Below, piece after piece: positions 4,693 through 11,100 of a DNA stretch of 32,153 nt. The notes beneath the pieces were generated by a model, which did not search any database, was not told where the DNA came from, and saw nothing but the letters and a program-made list of their open reading frames with translations. Origin of the DNA: Fidelibacterota bacterium (GTDB taxonomy: Bacteria > Pseudomonadota > Alphaproteobacteria > Rhodospirillales > Rhodospirillaceae); contig CANJOI010000010.1 in NCBI GenBank assembly GCA_947475365.1, positions 1-32,153 of the forward strand, given 5' to 3'. The translations under genes were made by a program, and so were the position numbers. How positions within the stretch are numbered: the stretch's first letter is position 1; each line of letters opens with the position of its first letter.

Positions 4693-5445
4693 ATGAAGTG
4701 GCGTGATCTCCCCGAAGGTTTCAGGCGCGCAATCCTGGTCGCCGGCGCCACCGTCAGCGTCGTGCTGATGCTCGCCCTGTCCAAGCGCGACGCCCGCTGG
4801 GAGGTCTGCAGCACCGCGGCGCCGGATGTCCGCATCAGAGCCTGTACCGCGATCATCGACTCCGGCTACGAGCGCGCCGACGGACTCTCACGCGCGTTCA
4901 GCAATCGGGGTGCGGCCTTCCGCCGTCAGGGTGACCTTGCCCGCGCCATGGACGATTATGACCAGGCGGTCCGGCTCAGCGACACCAACTCTCGCGCATT
5001 TCACAACCGCGCGGTGCTTCACGGCGAGGAGCAGCAATATGATCTGGCGCTTGCCGATCTCGACAAGGCCATTGCGCTCGACCCTTCTTACGCCAATGCC
5101 TGGAATGCCCGCTGCTGGACGAAGGTGCTGACGGGGGATCTCACAGACGCAGTGGCGGACTGTACGGAGTCTCTTAAGCTGCACGCCGCCGATGCCGTGA
5201 CGCTGTCCAGCCGCGCGCTCGCCTATCTCAAACTGAGGCAACTCGATCAAGCGATCGCCGACTATGACGCCGTCCTGAAGCTCTCCCCCCAAAACGCCAC
5301 GTCACTGTTCGGACGCGGCGTTGCCAAGCGTATGAAAGGCGATGCTTCCGCGCGCGGTGATCTTACCGCGGCGCAGGCGATCAATGCAGGTATCGCGGAA
5401 CAATTCGAAAAATATGGCGTGTCGAACGCGTCGGTCGCGGAGTGA
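4693..5445 (+). CDS. Membrane-anchored TPR-repeat protein
   Basis: A 250-residue protein with an N-terminal hydrophobic segment (residues 12-29, after KWRDLPEGFRR), which is a membrane anchor or uncleaved signal. Next comes a segment with two cysteines (C39 and C51, ending ACTAIIDSG), common in alphaproteobacterial periplasmic TPR proteins. Residues about 65-215 hold four tetratricopeptide repeats, visible as repeating A-x-x-N/S-R-A...G...A-x-x-D-x-x-x-A-x-x-L patterns. TPR domains are protein-protein scaffolds, so no specific role can be given. It is monocistronic, divergent from the LLM gene and convergent with the transporter operon, with only 35 bp and no obvious terminator between the convergent ends. 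Confidence 0.82.
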   Translation: MKWRDLPEGFRRAILVAGATVSVVLMLALSKRDARWEVCSTAAPDVRIRACTAIIDSGYERADGLSRAFSNRGAAFRRQGDLARAMDDYDQAVRLSDTNSRAFHNRAVLHGEEQQYDLALADLDKAIALDPSYANAWNARCWTKVLTGDLTDAVADCTESLKLHAADAVTLSSRALAYLKLRQLDQAIADYDAVLKLSPQNATSLFGRGVAKRMKGDASARGDLTAAQAINAGIAEQFEKYGVSNASVAE

Positions 5446-5480
5446 GATCCCTGGTGGTCTCGGCTCGAGTCACACGCTGC

Positions 5481-6038
5481 TCAGCGGAAGGTGGCGACCA
5501 GCTTGTTCGTGCGCGTCAGGGCATTGGACAGTTTCTGGATCACCATATGATCGAAACGGCTGGCGAGGTCGGGGTTCTCCTGGCGCAGCCGGGCAAGCGC
5601 GGCGTTGTGGAGCACATAGATCGATGAGTCACTGACCGCGACGATCGACGCGGTGCGCGCGTCGCCGGTATAAAACGCCAGCTCTCCGACCATCGCGCCC
5701 TTGTGCAACTTGGCCAGCCGGATCGCTCTGTCGGCCGATTTAACCACCTCGAGGCTGCCCGTCTCGATGAAAAAGATCTCCGCCGAGCGGTCGCCCTCCG
5801 TACAGAGTGTTTCTCCCGCGCGGACATGTTTCATCTCGCAGTAGCCGAGAAAGACGGCGCGGTCGGCCGTGCTCTCGAGGAAGGCAAGCGGGGTTGTGGC
5901 GGCGCCGCCGCGCGCGGCGACGATCGCGTCCTCGGCCGTCTCCACCGCATGGTCGAGGGAGGAAAAAAGGCGTAGCCGCGCGGGGTCGCCGCCGCCGGCA
6001 ATGGCGCGGACACTCGCTTCGTTTTCCGGCCCATGCAC
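5481..6038 (-). CDS. C-terminal STAS half plus cyclic-nucleotide-binding domain, cut off from SulP by an amber stop
   Basis: Read from a GTG at 6038, this gives 185 residues. Residues 1-55 look like the second half of a STAS domain (HGPENEAS, then RLFSSLDHAVETAEDAI). Residues 60-185 are a Crp-like cyclic-nucleotide-binding domain with AGETLCTEGD, an IFFIETGSLEVV strand, and a phosphate-binding cassette GELAFYTGDARTASI that keeps the key Glu and Arg. The frame is the same as the SulP gene upstream, separated only by TAG at 6084-6086 and 15 codons that read naturally as STAS (RILRRHRDTPTLFYLV). The GTG has no Shine-Dalgarno sequence, so independent translation is doubtful. Most likely this is the detached tail of a SulP-STAS-cNMP protein of about 704 residues. 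Confidence 0.7.
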   Translation of the reverse strand: MHGPENEASVRAIAGGGDPARLRLFSSLDHAVETAEDAIVAARGGAATTPLAFLESTADRAVFLGYCEMKHVRAGETLCTEGDRSAEIFFIETGSLEVVKSADRAIRLAKLHKGAMVGELAFYTGDARTASIVAVSDSSIYVLHNAALARLRQENPDLASRFDHMVIQKLSNALTRTNKLVATFR

Positions 6039-6083
6039 CAGATAGAAGAGCGTGGGCGTGTCGCGATGGCGACGCAGAATGCG

Positions 6084-6086
6084 CTA
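6084..6086 (-). other. In-frame amber codon splitting the SulP-STAS-cNMP reading frame
   Basis: Minus-strand reading is GTT TTC TAG CGC ATT, within the first STAS helix just after GIDSSAVGVF. Removing this codon joins the frames at 7595-6087 and 6083-5481 into one continuous protein. A single C-to-T change from CAG (Gln) would explain it. TAG is used as an ordinary stop by several genes in this window, so genome-wide recoding is unlikely. Confidence 0.85.
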
Positions 6087-7595
6087 GAAAACCCCGACGG
6101 CGGAACTGTCGATGCCGCTGACTTTTGAGAAGTCGATCACCACCCCTTCGACCGCGCTGTCCAGAGCCTGGAACACCGCATCGATCTTGCTGGCCGACCC
6201 GAAGAACACGTAACCCCCAAGGCGGAACAAAAGCGTGCCGGCGCCGTGCGCGCGCAGAGTCTGGGTTTCGCTCTCGGGCCGCACCACGGAACTCGCGAAC
6301 AGCGAGAGGTTGGTCGCAAGCTCCGCCAGCGGCACGCGGCTATAGCTGATGACAAACACAATGCAGGAGATCAGCAAGCCGGCCGAGAAGCCGACCAGAA
6401 AACCGTAGTTCGCCACCAGCACCAGGATCAACACGATCTGCGCAAATTCGATGGGGCGGGTGGCGCGCCGCTGGTCCCACAGCCATTGTTTCAGCATGCC
6501 GACGCCGAGAAACAGCACGAGGCCGCCGAGCGCGGCTTTCGGCACATAAGCCAGCGCCTGACCCGCGCCCAGCAACATGGCCACGCACATGGCTGCGGCA
6601 ATGGTGCCCGCCAGCGCGCCGCCGCCGGTTTGTTTATTGAGCATGGTGCGGCCGATGGAGACCAGCGGGATAAAGCCCCCCAGGGCGGCGGATACGCCCG
6701 CCGCGGCGGCGTTGACCTTCAGCACCCGGTTGAGATCGAATTCCCGGTGGAAATTCAGCTCAAGGCTGGCCACCGAAATCAAGATCGTCAGCAGGCCAAC
6801 GAAACACACCACCAGCATCGACGGCAGGTTCTGCGCAAGATCGGCAAGGGCGGTCAGGTCGCCCGAGACCTTCCACGGAGGCAGCCACTGCACATCCTGC
6901 ATGCGCGCGAACATCCAGGCCGAGCGGCTGCAATAGCTCTCCGGGCACAGCCCGCTGGCCAGCAGCAGATTCGCCGCGACCGCGGCGACAATCATCACCA
7001 GCGGAATGAGGATCGCCGCCGGCACCCGGCGCGCCAGGCCAAAGAGAACACTCGCGACCACGACGCCGAAGGCGAGTTCCGGCCGGACAGGATTAGCGAA
7101 AAGCGTCGTGAAGCCCGCATACGTGAGCGGTGTTCCCAAAATGATGTTCAGCGCTCCGCTGGACATGAGCCAGCCGGTGGAGGCGAGAAACCCGGCCATG
7201 ACCGAGAACGGAATGTAGCGCACGAGGCTGGACAGGCGCGCGCGCGCCACAAGATAGAACGACAGCGCGGCCATGATCGAGGTCAGGAAGACGCTGCCGA
7301 TGGTGAAATCGATGTGCAGCGGACCAGCGGCGCCACCGCCTAAGGCCGCCAGCATGCTAGCCTGGACCGAGAACGTGTTGGAATCAGGCCCGGCGATGAA
7401 GGATTTCTCATCCGAGAACCAGCCCGACAATGCGCCGATCACCGCCGTGATCAGCGCGATGGTGATGCCGTACCCCACTTGCGGCGCGAGTGATCCGGAG
7501 AACAGCAACGCGCCATAAGACAGGGAATAGATCACACTGCTGAGGCCGACGATAATCCCCGCGGATGCTTCACGCCCGATTGTACCAAGGCGCAT
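6084..7595 (-). CDS. SulP/SLC26-family anion transporter, STAS domain truncated
   Basis: This 503-residue product has the SulP membrane core: about ten or more hydrophobic segments, an early AGIIVGLSSVIYSLSYGALLF helix, the GPDSNTFSVQASM segment typical of the family, and GGFIPLVSIGRTMLNKQTGGG. From about residue 445 a STAS domain begins (GTLLFRLGGYVFFGSASKID, VVIDFSKVSGIDSSAVGVF) but ends abruptly at TAG, halfway through a domain normally over 100 residues long. SulP proteins move sulfate, bicarbonate or dicarboxylates across the inner membrane; the substrate here is unknown. The gene starts 2 bp after the racemase stop, so the two are co-transcribed. Losing half of STAS would probably impair folding or regulation, unless the stop is read through. 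Confidence 0.82.
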   Translation of the reverse strand: MRLGTIGREASAGIIVGLSSVIYSLSYGALLFSGSLAPQVGYGITIALITAVIGALSGWFSDEKSFIAGPDSNTFSVQASMLAALGGGAAGPLHIDFTIGSVFLTSIMAALSFYLVARARLSSLVRYIPFSVMAGFLASTGWLMSSGALNIILGTPLTYAGFTTLFANPVRPELAFGVVVASVLFGLARRVPAAILIPLVMIVAAVAANLLLASGLCPESYCSRSAWMFARMQDVQWLPPWKVSGDLTALADLAQNLPSMLVVCFVGLLTILISVASLELNFHREFDLNRVLKVNAAAAGVSAALGGFIPLVSIGRTMLNKQTGGGALAGTIAAAMCVAMLLGAGQALAYVPKAALGGLVLFLGVGMLKQWLWDQRRATRPIEFAQIVLILVLVANYGFLVGFSAGLLISCIVFVISYSRVPLAELATNLSLFASSVVRPESETQTLRAHGAGTLLFRLGGYVFFGSASKIDAVFQALDSAVEGVVIDFSKVSGIDSSAVGVF

Positions 7596-7597
7596 CG

Positions 7598-8308
7598 TTA
7601 CGTCCGGCTGCCGCGGGTGAAAACCTCCAGCACCGCGTCCACCAGGGCGTCGTTGGAATCGACGAACTTGCCGGGGTTGGCGCGGTATTGGCGCTCCATG
7701 CCGAAGGGGATTTCGGTACAGCCCAGCACGGTGATCTCCGCGCCGCGCGCGGTCAGCAAAGTCGAGGCCTTTTCATAGGCCGCTTCCGCGCCGGCCCAGT
7801 CGTTGGCCTTCATCATGGCGATGCCCGGCGACACCAGGGTTTCAAATTCGTCCTCGGTCGGCGTCACCACGTCGTAGCCCATGGCGCGGAGCGTGCCGCT
7901 ATAGATGCCCATGCGGTGGGTGCCGACAGTGGACAGCACGCCGACAGCGCGCGCCTGGGGGTTTTTCTTGGCCACCTGCCGCGCGCTCGCGCGCACGATG
8001 TGCAGCACGGGCGCGGCGGAGGCGGCCTGCATTTCGTCAAACCAGCAATGGGCGCTGTTGCAGGGAATGCAGATGGCTTTAGCGCCGGCGCGATTCAAAG
8101 CCTCGATCCCGGCCAGCAGCTTAGGCAGCGGCGACGGCCCATCGCCGACAATGCTCGCGGTCCGGTCCGGGATGGTGCAATCGCCGTACAGCATGACCGG
8201 AATATGCTCCTGGTCAGTCAAAGCCGGCGTGCGTTTCACCAATTTGCGTAAGAAATCAGCCGTGGCCAATGGGCCCATACCGCCCAATACGCCGAGAAAA
8301 TCGTCCAT
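7598..8308 (-). CDS. Aspartate/glutamate racemase family protein
   Basis: A 236-residue protein with the fold of the Asp/Glu/hydantoin racemase superfamily. The start DFLGVLGGMGPLAT is the family's N-terminal signature. The two catalytic cysteines of cofactor-independent racemases are present: C83 in IPCNSAH and C197 in LGCTEIPF. It most resembles aspartate racemases (YgeA-like), interconverting L- and D-aspartate or a related amino acid; exact substrate is uncertain. I chose the ATG at 8308 rather than 8353 because GGGGGCG precedes it, the protein then begins at the conserved motif, and a TATATA box lies between the two candidates. It heads an operon with the SulP transporter, possibly linking amino-acid racemisation with anion transport (inference). 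Confidence 0.85.
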   Translation of the reverse strand: MDDFLGVLGGMGPLATADFLRKLVKRTPALTDQEHIPVMLYGDCTIPDRTASIVGDGPSPLPKLLAGIEALNRAGAKAICIPCNSAHCWFDEMQAASAAPVLHIVRASARQVAKKNPQARAVGVLSTVGTHRMGIYSGTLRAMGYDVVTPTEDEFETLVSPGIAMMKANDWAGAEAAYEKASTLLTARGAEITVLGCTEIPFGMERQYRANPGKFVDSNDALVDAVLEVFTRGSRT

Positions 8309-8331
8309 CCGCGCCCCCAGTTGAGGGCGAC

Positions 8332-8359
8332 TATATATCAGAAGATTGTCCATTCAGAA
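8332..8359 (-). promoter_or_regulatory. Weak candidate promoter of the racemase-sulP operon
   Basis: TATATA (8337-8332 on the minus strand) with a poor -35 (TTCTGA, 8359-8354) 16 bp upstream. The predicted start near 8325 leaves a 17-nt leader carrying GGGGGCG before the ATG at 8308. Confidence 0.3.
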
Positions 8360-8406
8360 GGCTGTGGCCTTGCGCGGCCCTGTGGCCCCGCGCGCCAGAA
8401 AAGTGT

Positions 8407-8495
8407 TGGTGCCCGCTGCCGGAATTGAACCGGCACGGCCCTTACGGGCCAACGGATTTTAAGTCCGTTGCGTCTACCAATTCCGCCAAGCGGGC
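8407..8495 (-). tRNA. tRNA-Leu, anticodon UAA
   Basis: The minus strand folds as a class II tRNA. The acceptor stem is GCCCGCT/AGCGGGC, the D-arm region reads GGCGGAATTGGTAGACGC, and the anticodon stem AACGGA/TCCGTT encloses loop CTTAAAA with anticodon TAA, which reads UUA (and UUG). A variable arm GGCCCGTAAGGGCC and the T-arm GCCGGTTCAATTCCGGC follow. The discriminator A is followed by an encoded CCA (8409-8407). The length is 89 nt with CCA. Confidence 0.97.
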
Positions 8496-9316: not shown

Positions 9317-10114
9317 CTACAGTGTTGGTCTGAGCGCGCCCACCAGGCCGTCCACGATCTTGCTGAAGGGCGAGGGCTGGGTGTCGCCGGCATCCACGGC
9401 CACCGCGGCGAACACCGGTTCACCCGCGAGCCAGCGGGCCTCGGCGGTTTCGTCGGCGAGCGCGATCGCCAGAGCGTGGTTCATCTCAACATTCTGATAG
9501 GGCACTTTCCCCAGGATCAGTCCGGCGCGCAGGATGATGATGGACATCATCCGCACTGTGGCGCTGGCGTCCGCGGCCGTGAAGGGCTCGCCGGTCTTGA
9601 GCTCGAAAATCCGCATGCAGGTGTCGAGCGATTTCGAGAGCACGGCGCGGCACACCATCGGCCGCGACAGGTATTCCGAACAGCCCCGGTTCTCCAACAT
9701 CGGGCACGGCAGGCGGAGATCCTCGCGGACATACTGCTGGACGCTGGAGGATTTCGCCGCCGCGGCGTTCACGCGCGCGGTCTTGGCGGTCTGGCCGCGC
9801 ACCGCGCGGGCCAGCAACAGGATTTCCGGAATTGAGGCGCTGACATAGGTTTTGCAGCAATGGTCGCAGCCGCGCGCGCACTCGACCCGGCCGGTGACAT
9901 GGGCTTTGATGTTGGCATCGAGCAGATTTTCGGCGAAGGCGGCGGCGCGGCTGGCGCGGTCCGGGATGCTGGTGTCGCGCAGGAGCAGCCCGATATGCCG
10001 GGCGTTGGCCTGGATCGCCCGCGCATTATCGCCCTGCAAGGGGTACGCCTTGCCGATCAGGGCCGCGTCATCGCGCAGCAGGGCGGCCTTGAGTTCCGGT
10101 GTAATGACGGTCAT
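9317..10114 (-). CDS. YkgJ-family cysteine-cluster protein
   Basis: A 265-residue protein whose central part has the zinc- or iron-chelating YkgJ cysteine cluster: C79, C83, C86 and C87 in ECARGCDHCCK, then C137 (LPCPML), C145 (NRGCSEY), C155 (PMVCRA) and C166. This order matches the family (CxxxCxxCC, CP-L, GC-IY, RP-CR). Function is unknown; the family is thought to bind a metal ion or an Fe-S cluster. The first 70 residues are helical and the C-terminal hundred residues are not recognised. The TAGAAT box ends exactly 7 nt before the ATG with no Shine-Dalgarno sequence, so a leaderless mRNA is possible. It is divergent from the pseudouridine synthase gene by 80 bp. Confidence 0.8.
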   Translation of the reverse strand: MTVITPELKAALLRDDAALIGKAYPLQGDNARAIQANARHIGLLLRDTSIPDRASRAAAFAENLLDANIKAHVTGRVECARGCDHCCKTYVSASIPEILLLARAVRGQTAKTARVNAAAAKSSSVQQYVREDLRLPCPMLENRGCSEYLSRPMVCRAVLSKSLDTCMRIFELKTGEPFTAADASATVRMMSIIILRAGLILGKVPYQNVEMNHALAIALADETAEARWLAGEPVFAAVAVDAGDTQPSPFSKIVDGLVGALRPTL

Positions 10115-10120
10115 GCGCAG

Positions 10121-10126
10121 ATTCTA
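10121..10126 (-). promoter_or_regulatory. -10 box placed for a leaderless YkgJ-type mRNA
   Basis: TAGAAT (five of six matches to TATAAT) occupies 10126-10121 on the minus strand. Placing it at -12 to -7 puts +1 at 10114, the A of the ATG. No good -35 is seen at 16-18 bp. Confidence 0.4.
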
Positions 10127-10194
10127 GCCTGCGGAACGGCGTCCGGCATAGCGGGCCTTGCGGCGGGGCGGGTTATGGGCGAGCTTGCGCCCGC

Positions 10195-11100
10195 ATGCCC
10201 AATCCCGCCGCCAAAGGCCTTTCGGCCGAAGAAATCCTCGCCCGCCTCTTGCACCGCGACGGCATGATCCTGGTGATCAACAAGCCGCCGGGCATCCCGG
10301 TGCATGCCGGTTTCGGTGGCGGGCCGAACCTGGAAGAGAGTTTCGTCCACCTCGCCTTTGGGCTGCATCGCCCGCCCGCCTTGTGCCATCGCCTCGACCG
10401 CGACACGTCCGGCTGCCTGGTGCTCGGGCGCCATACCAAGGCGCTGCGCCAGGTGGGCGATATGTTCGCCGCCGGCAAGGTGCGCAAGACCTATTGGGCG
10501 TTGGTGGACGGTGCGCCACGCGAGAGTGAAGGGCGCATCAAGGTGCCGATCCGCAAGATCGGGCAGGGGCCGGGCTGGAAGATGAAGGCCGATCCCCGCA
10601 ACGGCCAGGAAGCCATCACCGACTATAAAGTGCGCGGGTCGATCGACACGCCGCACGGCAAACGCACCTGGCTGGAGCTTTATCCCCATACCGGACGCAC
10701 CCATCAGATTCGCATTCATTGCGCCGAGCTGGGATGCCCGGTTGTGGGCGACAAGGTTTATGGACGCGCGGAACTGGCCGGTGACTTGATGCTGCACGCA
10801 CGGGCGGTCGCCATCCCGATGCATTCCAAACGCGATCCCATCAAGGTCAAGGCGCCGCCGCCGGAACATATGCGCGCCGATCTCATCGCTTGCGGATTCA
10901 AGGAAGAGCCCGAGCCGGCGCCTGTCGCGGCGGCCGCGGATCCGAATCCGCCGCCGAAAGTCATTCCGGATACGCCCGATTTTTCCGCGACCGATGCGGC
11001 CAGGAACCGTGCGGCCACACGCGGCGCTTTCAAGAAAAAAGGCCGCCGGCCGGGTGGGCCCAAGAGAGTCGATAGGAAGACCGATAGAGAGCGGCGCTAG
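10195..11100 (+). CDS. RluA-family rRNA/tRNA pseudouridine synthase
   Basis: A 301-residue enzyme that isomerises uridine to pseudouridine in RNA. The catalytic motif HRLDRDTSGCLVLG (around residues 64-77) contains the essential aspartate. Other family blocks are ILVINKPPGIPVHAG near residue 23, KTYWALVDG, LELYPHTGRTHQIRIH around 155-170, and GCPVVGDKVYG. There is no S4 domain before the catalytic part, as in RluA/RluC-like short forms. The last 60 residues are Pro/Ala-rich then strongly basic (KKKGRRPGGPKR and RKTDRERR), probably a disordered RNA-binding tail. Target position in RNA cannot be told. Its stop shares CTAG with the stop of the convergent CinA-like gene. Confidence 0.9.
   Translation: MPNPAAKGLSAEEILARLLHRDGMILVINKPPGIPVHAGFGGGPNLEESFVHLAFGLHRPPALCHRLDRDTSGCLVLGRHTKALRQVGDMFAAGKVRKTYWALVDGAPRESEGRIKVPIRKIGQGPGWKMKADPRNGQEAITDYKVRGSIDTPHGKRTWLELYPHTGRTHQIRIHCAELGCPVVGDKVYGRAELAGDLMLHARAVAIPMHSKRDPIKVKAPPPEHMRADLIACGFKEEPEPAPVAAAADPNPPPKVIPDTPDFSATDAARNRAATRGAFKKKGRRPGGPKRVDRKTDRERR

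Follow-up and report, generated by a model that had tools for sequence, protein, structure and literature searches.

SLC26Dg is one of the SulP/SLC26 anion transporters that have a STAS domain. Among the characterized members of this type are also BicA, DauA/YchM and Rv1739c (NCBIfam; PMC5703999, PMC5840216). For DauA, the SulP protein of E. coli, PMC5703999 reports transport of succinate, fumarate and aspartate; the same source describes STAS as needed for the stabilization and functionality of bacterial Slc26 transporters, yet a two-hybrid test still detected interaction between DctA and DauA lacking STAS (residues 1–444).

The window, by which we mean the whole stretch of DNA analysed here (32,153 nucleotides; contig C10 of draft genome G000, which comprises 3.5 Mb in 340 contigs and is 80% complete), carries a gene that shares with these transporters Pfam matches to Sulfate_transp and STAS above the cut-off. 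The family of the window gene differs from SulP proteins of the BicA and DauA type in having an additional cyclic-nucleotide-binding (CNB) domain. The best solved relative is 5da0 ('Sulphate transporter'), which matches residues 256–511 of the intact orthologue from genome G003. That orthologue falls far under the NCBIfam cut-offs for BicA (63 against 880 bits), DauA (61 against 614) and sulP (60 against 380), and we therefore assign no substrate. Chains of the mll3241 potassium channel and of CRP match the CNB domain at residues 559–692 of the G003 orthologue; in contrast to those proteins, the CNB domain here follows STAS on a transporter, and its ligand binding is a prediction. Among the literature matches listed, none describes a bacterial SulP-STAS-CNB transporter in its title or the beginning of its abstract.

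The gene and its neighbours lie in the window as follows.

6087–7595, minus strand: first part, comprising the SulP transmembrane domain and the N-terminal half of STAS, with an ATG start, 503 codons
6084–6086, minus strand: in-frame TAG at residue 504, within a STAS helix (predicted helix 497–509)
5481–6083, minus strand: second part, comprising the remainder of STAS, a linker and the cyclic-nucleotide-binding domain (Pfam match at about 5574–5831), ending in TGA
7598–8353, minus strand: amino-acid racemase directly upstream of the SulP gene (Pfam Asp_Glu_race; NCBIfam CuyB)
8407–8495, minus strand: tRNA-Leu (TAA anticodon)
4693–5445, plus strand: TPR-repeat gene

As the preliminary description had stated, translation of the minus strand from 7595 to 5481 gives 704 codons in one frame with a single internal stop, the TAG at 6084–6086; the frame ends in TGA at 5481–5483. 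The SulP-STAS-CNB frame with its single internal TAG is thus real at the level of the sequence. The first part matches Sulfate_transp at residues 11–384 (PF00916, 70.7 bits against a cut-off of 23.2) and the first half of STAS at residues 453–503; only these STAS residues precede the stop, while the four intact orthologues of the genus have a complete STAS domain. In an AlphaFold model with the stop represented as Gln, residue 504 lies in STAS helix 497–509 behind strand 484–495, and beyond it come strand 516–520, helix 526–533, the rest of STAS and then the CNB domain. The model is of moderate quality (mean pLDDT 66): its membrane part is poor, whereas in STAS and CNB most blocks of ten residues exceed 70. 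It served solely to place the stop within the helix. The earlier claims that the break falls inside a STAS helix and that the codons past it still encode STAS and then a CNB domain are both borne out: Pfam cNMP_binding matches residues 85–170 of the second part, and an orthologue profile runs across the stop over its positions 2–707, the read-through copy of the window gene being one of the seven profile rows.

The window gene is most likely an ordinary gene that was recently broken. More specifically, we put at about 0.74 the probability that a recent nonsense mutation inactivated a dispensable, single-chain SulP-STAS-CNB secondary transporter gene. The preliminary description had offered this as one of four options, and it is the best supported of them, since relatives have a sense codon at this site and the same gene carries other lesions elsewhere in the genus.

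We compared the window gene with its relatives in a genus set of 19 genomes, eight of which have a high-scoring orthologue (G000 itself, G002, G003, G004, G010, G012, G013 and G015), and with G243, from a different genus of the same family. The genus is represented by fragmented drafts of 40 to 500 contigs each, and the species of the window by one genome. At the column of the stop, six of seven readable orthologues have Gln (G002, G003, G010, G012, G015 and G243) and the seventh, G004, has Glu; G013 gives no data there, as that part of its gene is lost. The same motif in the more distant locus L086 also has Gln, and in still more distant homologues the column looks variable by eye. TAG occurs in none of the seven, and the idea of a conserved amber codon, left open by the preliminary description, is rejected in favour of a sense codon.

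Coding constraint continues past the stop. Between the window gene and the G003 orthologue, pN is 0.171 before the stop and 0.159 after it, with pS at the saturated values of 0.69 and 0.76. Against the five remaining relatives, conservation is somewhat lower in the second part than in the first, and the same holds for three of four compared pairs among the relatives themselves. In a comparison with G003 and G010, the changes found in the window lineage alone stand at N:S 74:88 before the stop and 23:44 after it, and those found in G003 alone at 76:120 and 28:41. By these codon-level counts selection has not visibly relaxed past the stop, and their similarity on both sides indicates that the second part is no chance open frame. 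With G003 as the outgroup, the first part has accumulated 84:82 changes in the window against 48:59 in G013, a slight sign that the window copy may be changing faster. Conservation on both sides leaves three possibilities, a recent stop, one that is not real and one that is read through, among which the counts cannot choose; low N/S past the stop is equally expected from an error or from readthrough, and continued constraint is as compatible with readthrough as with a recent mutation.

Programmed or leaky amber readthrough, which would let one gene make a short and a long transporter, had been proposed in the preliminary description. The intact, conserved second part agrees with it, and so does the C after the stop, a context sometimes called leaky. 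Against it stand the absence of TAG from all seven readable orthologues and the commonness of TAG followed by C in this genome: C comes next at 33 of 89 TAG stops (frames of at least 300 codons, overlapping frames included), and the context that had been singled out is nothing special. A search for an amber suppressor with the Rfam tRNA model and ARAGORN found a CTA anticodon in none of the 32 tRNA genes detected in the 80% complete genome. Nor is TAG enriched between open frames. In the 412 kb analysed, roughly one eighth of the genome, it terminates 48 of 189 long ORFs (the first part of the window gene probably included), and it is the dividing codon in 16 of 61 same-frame ORF pairs split by a single stop, against 23 for TAA and 22 for TGA, the pairs being counted without a one-by-one homology check. 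TAG is an ordinary terminator in this genome. Genome-wide recoding is rejected, TAG being neither avoided as a terminator nor enriched between same-frame ORFs in the 412 kb. Readthrough of the window gene is thus very improbable, and it is just as doubtful that a minority of full-length SulP-STAS-CNB protein arises in this way beside a short form without the sensor. If it did, cyclic-nucleotide control of the transporter would be set by the efficiency of readthrough.

Internal TAG codons were also seen in SulP homologues from G058, G047, a Ramlibacter MAG (L091) and a divergent gene of G011; G054 has TAA, and TGA interrupts none of the homologues noticed. Suppression is not needed to account for this bias, because codon make-up favours TAG: in all five intact genes examined, single substitutions lead to TAG more often than to either other stop (in G003, 88 routes to TAG, 62 to TAA and 45 to TGA).

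Separate translation of the second part, which would then join the first through a split STAS domain, was a further option in the preliminary description. Both parts are open and conserved, as a two-chain transporter would have it, but the nearest in-frame starts past the stop lack useful Shine-Dalgarno pairing: the anti-Shine-Dalgarno duplex energies are +1.9 at 6038 (leaving 185 residues), +0.4 at 5945 (154 residues) and −1.7 at 5834 (117 residues). The earlier statement that no Shine-Dalgarno sequence supports the second part holds for these three starts; later ones pair better (−3.4 at 5747, −3.5 at 5708 and −4.2 at 5693). Those later starts leave 88, 75 and 70 residues, respectively, and hence less than a whole CNB domain. 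The measure itself separates weakly, with a median of −3.0 at the first ATGs of long ORFs against −2.6 at random sites. The halves were not seen as separate genes among the relatives examined, and frameshifts account for the seeming splits in G243, G072 and G047. A two-chain transporter is therefore hardly credible, and taken jointly the split-STAS and programmed-readthrough ideas merit a few percent.

Four of the eight genus orthologues are broken, each in its own way, and a stop codon is the lesion in just one of the four. The lesions in the genus and beyond are as follows.

Window (G000): TAG
G004: frameshift near residue 215
G015: deletion with a sharp junction, fusing the racemase start, out of frame, to SulP at about residue 122
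G013: nothing past about residue 426, less than 1 kb from the contig end, with the membrane domain kept
G243: frameshift at about residue 550–563
Further off: frameshift in G072; frameshift and TAG in G047; TAG in G058; TAA in G054

In a search of 317 genomes, a wider tally of 41 rows (43 rows with E values up to 4.0e-63, minus the second pieces of G004 and G243) contains 28 full-length homologues without reported stops, 9 broken ones (G000, G004, G013, G015, G047, G054, G058, G072 and G243) and 4 cut or partial ones left unjudged (the second copy in G042, G092, G121 and G187). The 28 take in a divergent homologue of G007, which lies on another contig and is 26% identical to the window gene. 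Below the tally come 27 weaker rows, one of them the second piece of G072; in the other 26 (E 1e-55 to 1e-30) no internal stops are reported, and decay is thus not general in the wider SulP-STAS-CNB group. The window genome itself has a second, divergent SulP-STAS-CNB gene of 815 codons on contig C180, which is free of stops.

Damaged homologues were also noticed elsewhere. A divergent SulP-STAS-CNB gene in G011 (L102; contig C4, about 111370–112203, minus strand) is frameshifted ahead of STAS and carries a TAG towards the end of that domain, and with two lesions in a genome rated 100% complete it is very likely a pseudogene. Homologues at L121, L122, L123 and L124, in other families, and at L091 in the Ramlibacter MAG have frameshifts or internal stops.

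The main rival to nonsense inactivation is a consensus error or a minority variant, the working gene being intact in most cells. The draft is fragmented and incomplete, and apart from the stop the gene shows no damage, with conservation before and after it, all of which fits this view. Against it, other lesions break the same gene in relatives, which favours real decay, and control genes from the same drafts are free of lesions. Four neighbouring control genes have lesions in none of 40 non-edge copies (11 intact copies of secA, 10 each of g12348m and g11097m, and 9 of g17396m) against four of eight for the transporter, a post hoc comparison (Fisher p = 0.0004) for which these four of 16 rows were picked after the table had been seen. 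The rows left out, given as intact/not clean/edge, were g10111m (2/7/1), g18346m (3/1/5), CxxC (7/1/0), the racemase (5/1/0), g1859m (0/1/0), luciferase (3/0/0), FkbM, TPR, metallophosphatase and g1147m (1/0/0 each), and the first (3/3/0) and second (5/0/0) parts of the SulP gene itself. The start of g18346m was probably called too early. Among 20 SecA rows from the 19 genomes, of which the G004 and G018 copies are partial, none has an internal stop. We regard an error or a minority variant as unlikely, though less so than any other alternative to nonsense inactivation. Some of the lesions in relatives, such as the one near a contig end in G013 and the sharp junction in G015, may likewise be assembly faults of fragmented drafts.

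A separate observation concerns the 252-codon ORF at 10111–10869 on the minus strand (g10111m), which meets stops within homologous stretches in 7 of 10 loci and is probably a wrong frame and no gene.

Loss of the regulatory half might alternatively have been adaptive, with the truncated membrane domain still made and transporting free of STAS and CNB control. G013 likewise keeps the membrane domain and loses all that follows residue 426 or so, conservation persists upstream of the stop in the window gene, and the two-hybrid interaction of STAS-less E. coli DauA with DctA (PMC5703999) points the same way. The stop, however, falls within a STAS helix and not at a domain border, the lesions of G004 and G015 hit the membrane part instead, and PMC5703999 describes STAS as needed for stability and function in bacterial relatives. 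We consider adaptive loss improbable.

The racemase scores 222 bits against the NCBIfam model for CuyB, a cysteate racemase (cut-off 190). It is the immediate upstream neighbour of the SulP gene at 8 of the 10 orthologous loci (the window, G002, G003, G004, G010, G013, G243 and L086). The two loci without a whole racemase are G015, where the deletion cuts it, and G012, where a possible remnant consists of a 15-residue match to the racemase end (E 0.01) beside other sequence (L007, bases 1–801 of a 3.2-kb contig); in G012 the racemase has apparently been lost while the transporter is intact. Of the 11 GTDB loci of the gene, 10 are labelled as MAGs and one is from a named strain, Ramlibacter albus, and at the locus of that strain (L092) the racemase has no convincing match.

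The nearest relative of the window genome by SecA is G007 (94% identical, against 91% for G013). G007 keeps the order CxxC, FkbM, tRNA-Leu, and then the TPR gene and the luciferase-like gene, and an ORF of several hundred codons replaces the racemase and SulP segment (window 5424–8406). Nucleotide homology between the window and G007 stops at the 3' end of tRNA-Leu and resumes in the 3' end of the TPR gene (about 5424). None of the window genes tested matches the replacing ORF significantly. A racemase was looked for in G007 and not found, and the divergent gene on another contig is the sole SulP-STAS-CNB match of that genome. G003 has the racemase–SulP pair in this neighbourhood, too, with CxxC on one side and the luciferase-like gene on the other, and we infer from this that loss or replacement in G007 is likelier than a fresh gain in the window.

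Two further observations concern the segment and its transporter. The stretch 5424–8406 is a variable site beside a tRNA gene. The SulP proteins of the window and G013 (L108) are just 72% identical at a SecA identity of 91%, so that the transporter may be fast-changing or may have been exchanged.

Taken together, the lesion of the window gene is absent from its relatives, four of the eight genus orthologues are broken, and G007, the nearest sister, carries different DNA at its position. Such a single internal stop, with a sense codon and other lesions in relatives and other DNA in a sister genome, is also what bacterial pseudogenes display, although the window gene differs from the usual nonsense pseudogene in being very young or polymorphic, with no further decay past the stop. 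Under nonsense inactivation, a mutation would have placed TAG in the STAS helix and translation would end there, giving a predicted product of a membrane domain and half a STAS domain that lacks the CNB sensor and is probably unstable or inactive. Because STAS is described as needed for function, and yet DauA without it interacts with DctA in the two-hybrid test (PMC5703999), loss of function is likely and not certain; by analogy with DauA 1–444, the STAS-less product need not vanish. Within this group of draft genomes the gene appears to be dispensable, given the different lesions in close relatives and the other DNA in G007.

The locus illustrates that a conserved open frame past an in-frame stop need not imply recoding, which closes a tempting lead. 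For the intact gene, a reasonable guess from its domains and its neighbour is an acidic or sulfonated amino-acid transporter gated by cyclic nucleotide. The racemase and the SulP-STAS-CNB protein together would form a candidate module for the transport and racemisation of acidic or sulfonated amino acids, which several relatives seem to have lost or to be losing.
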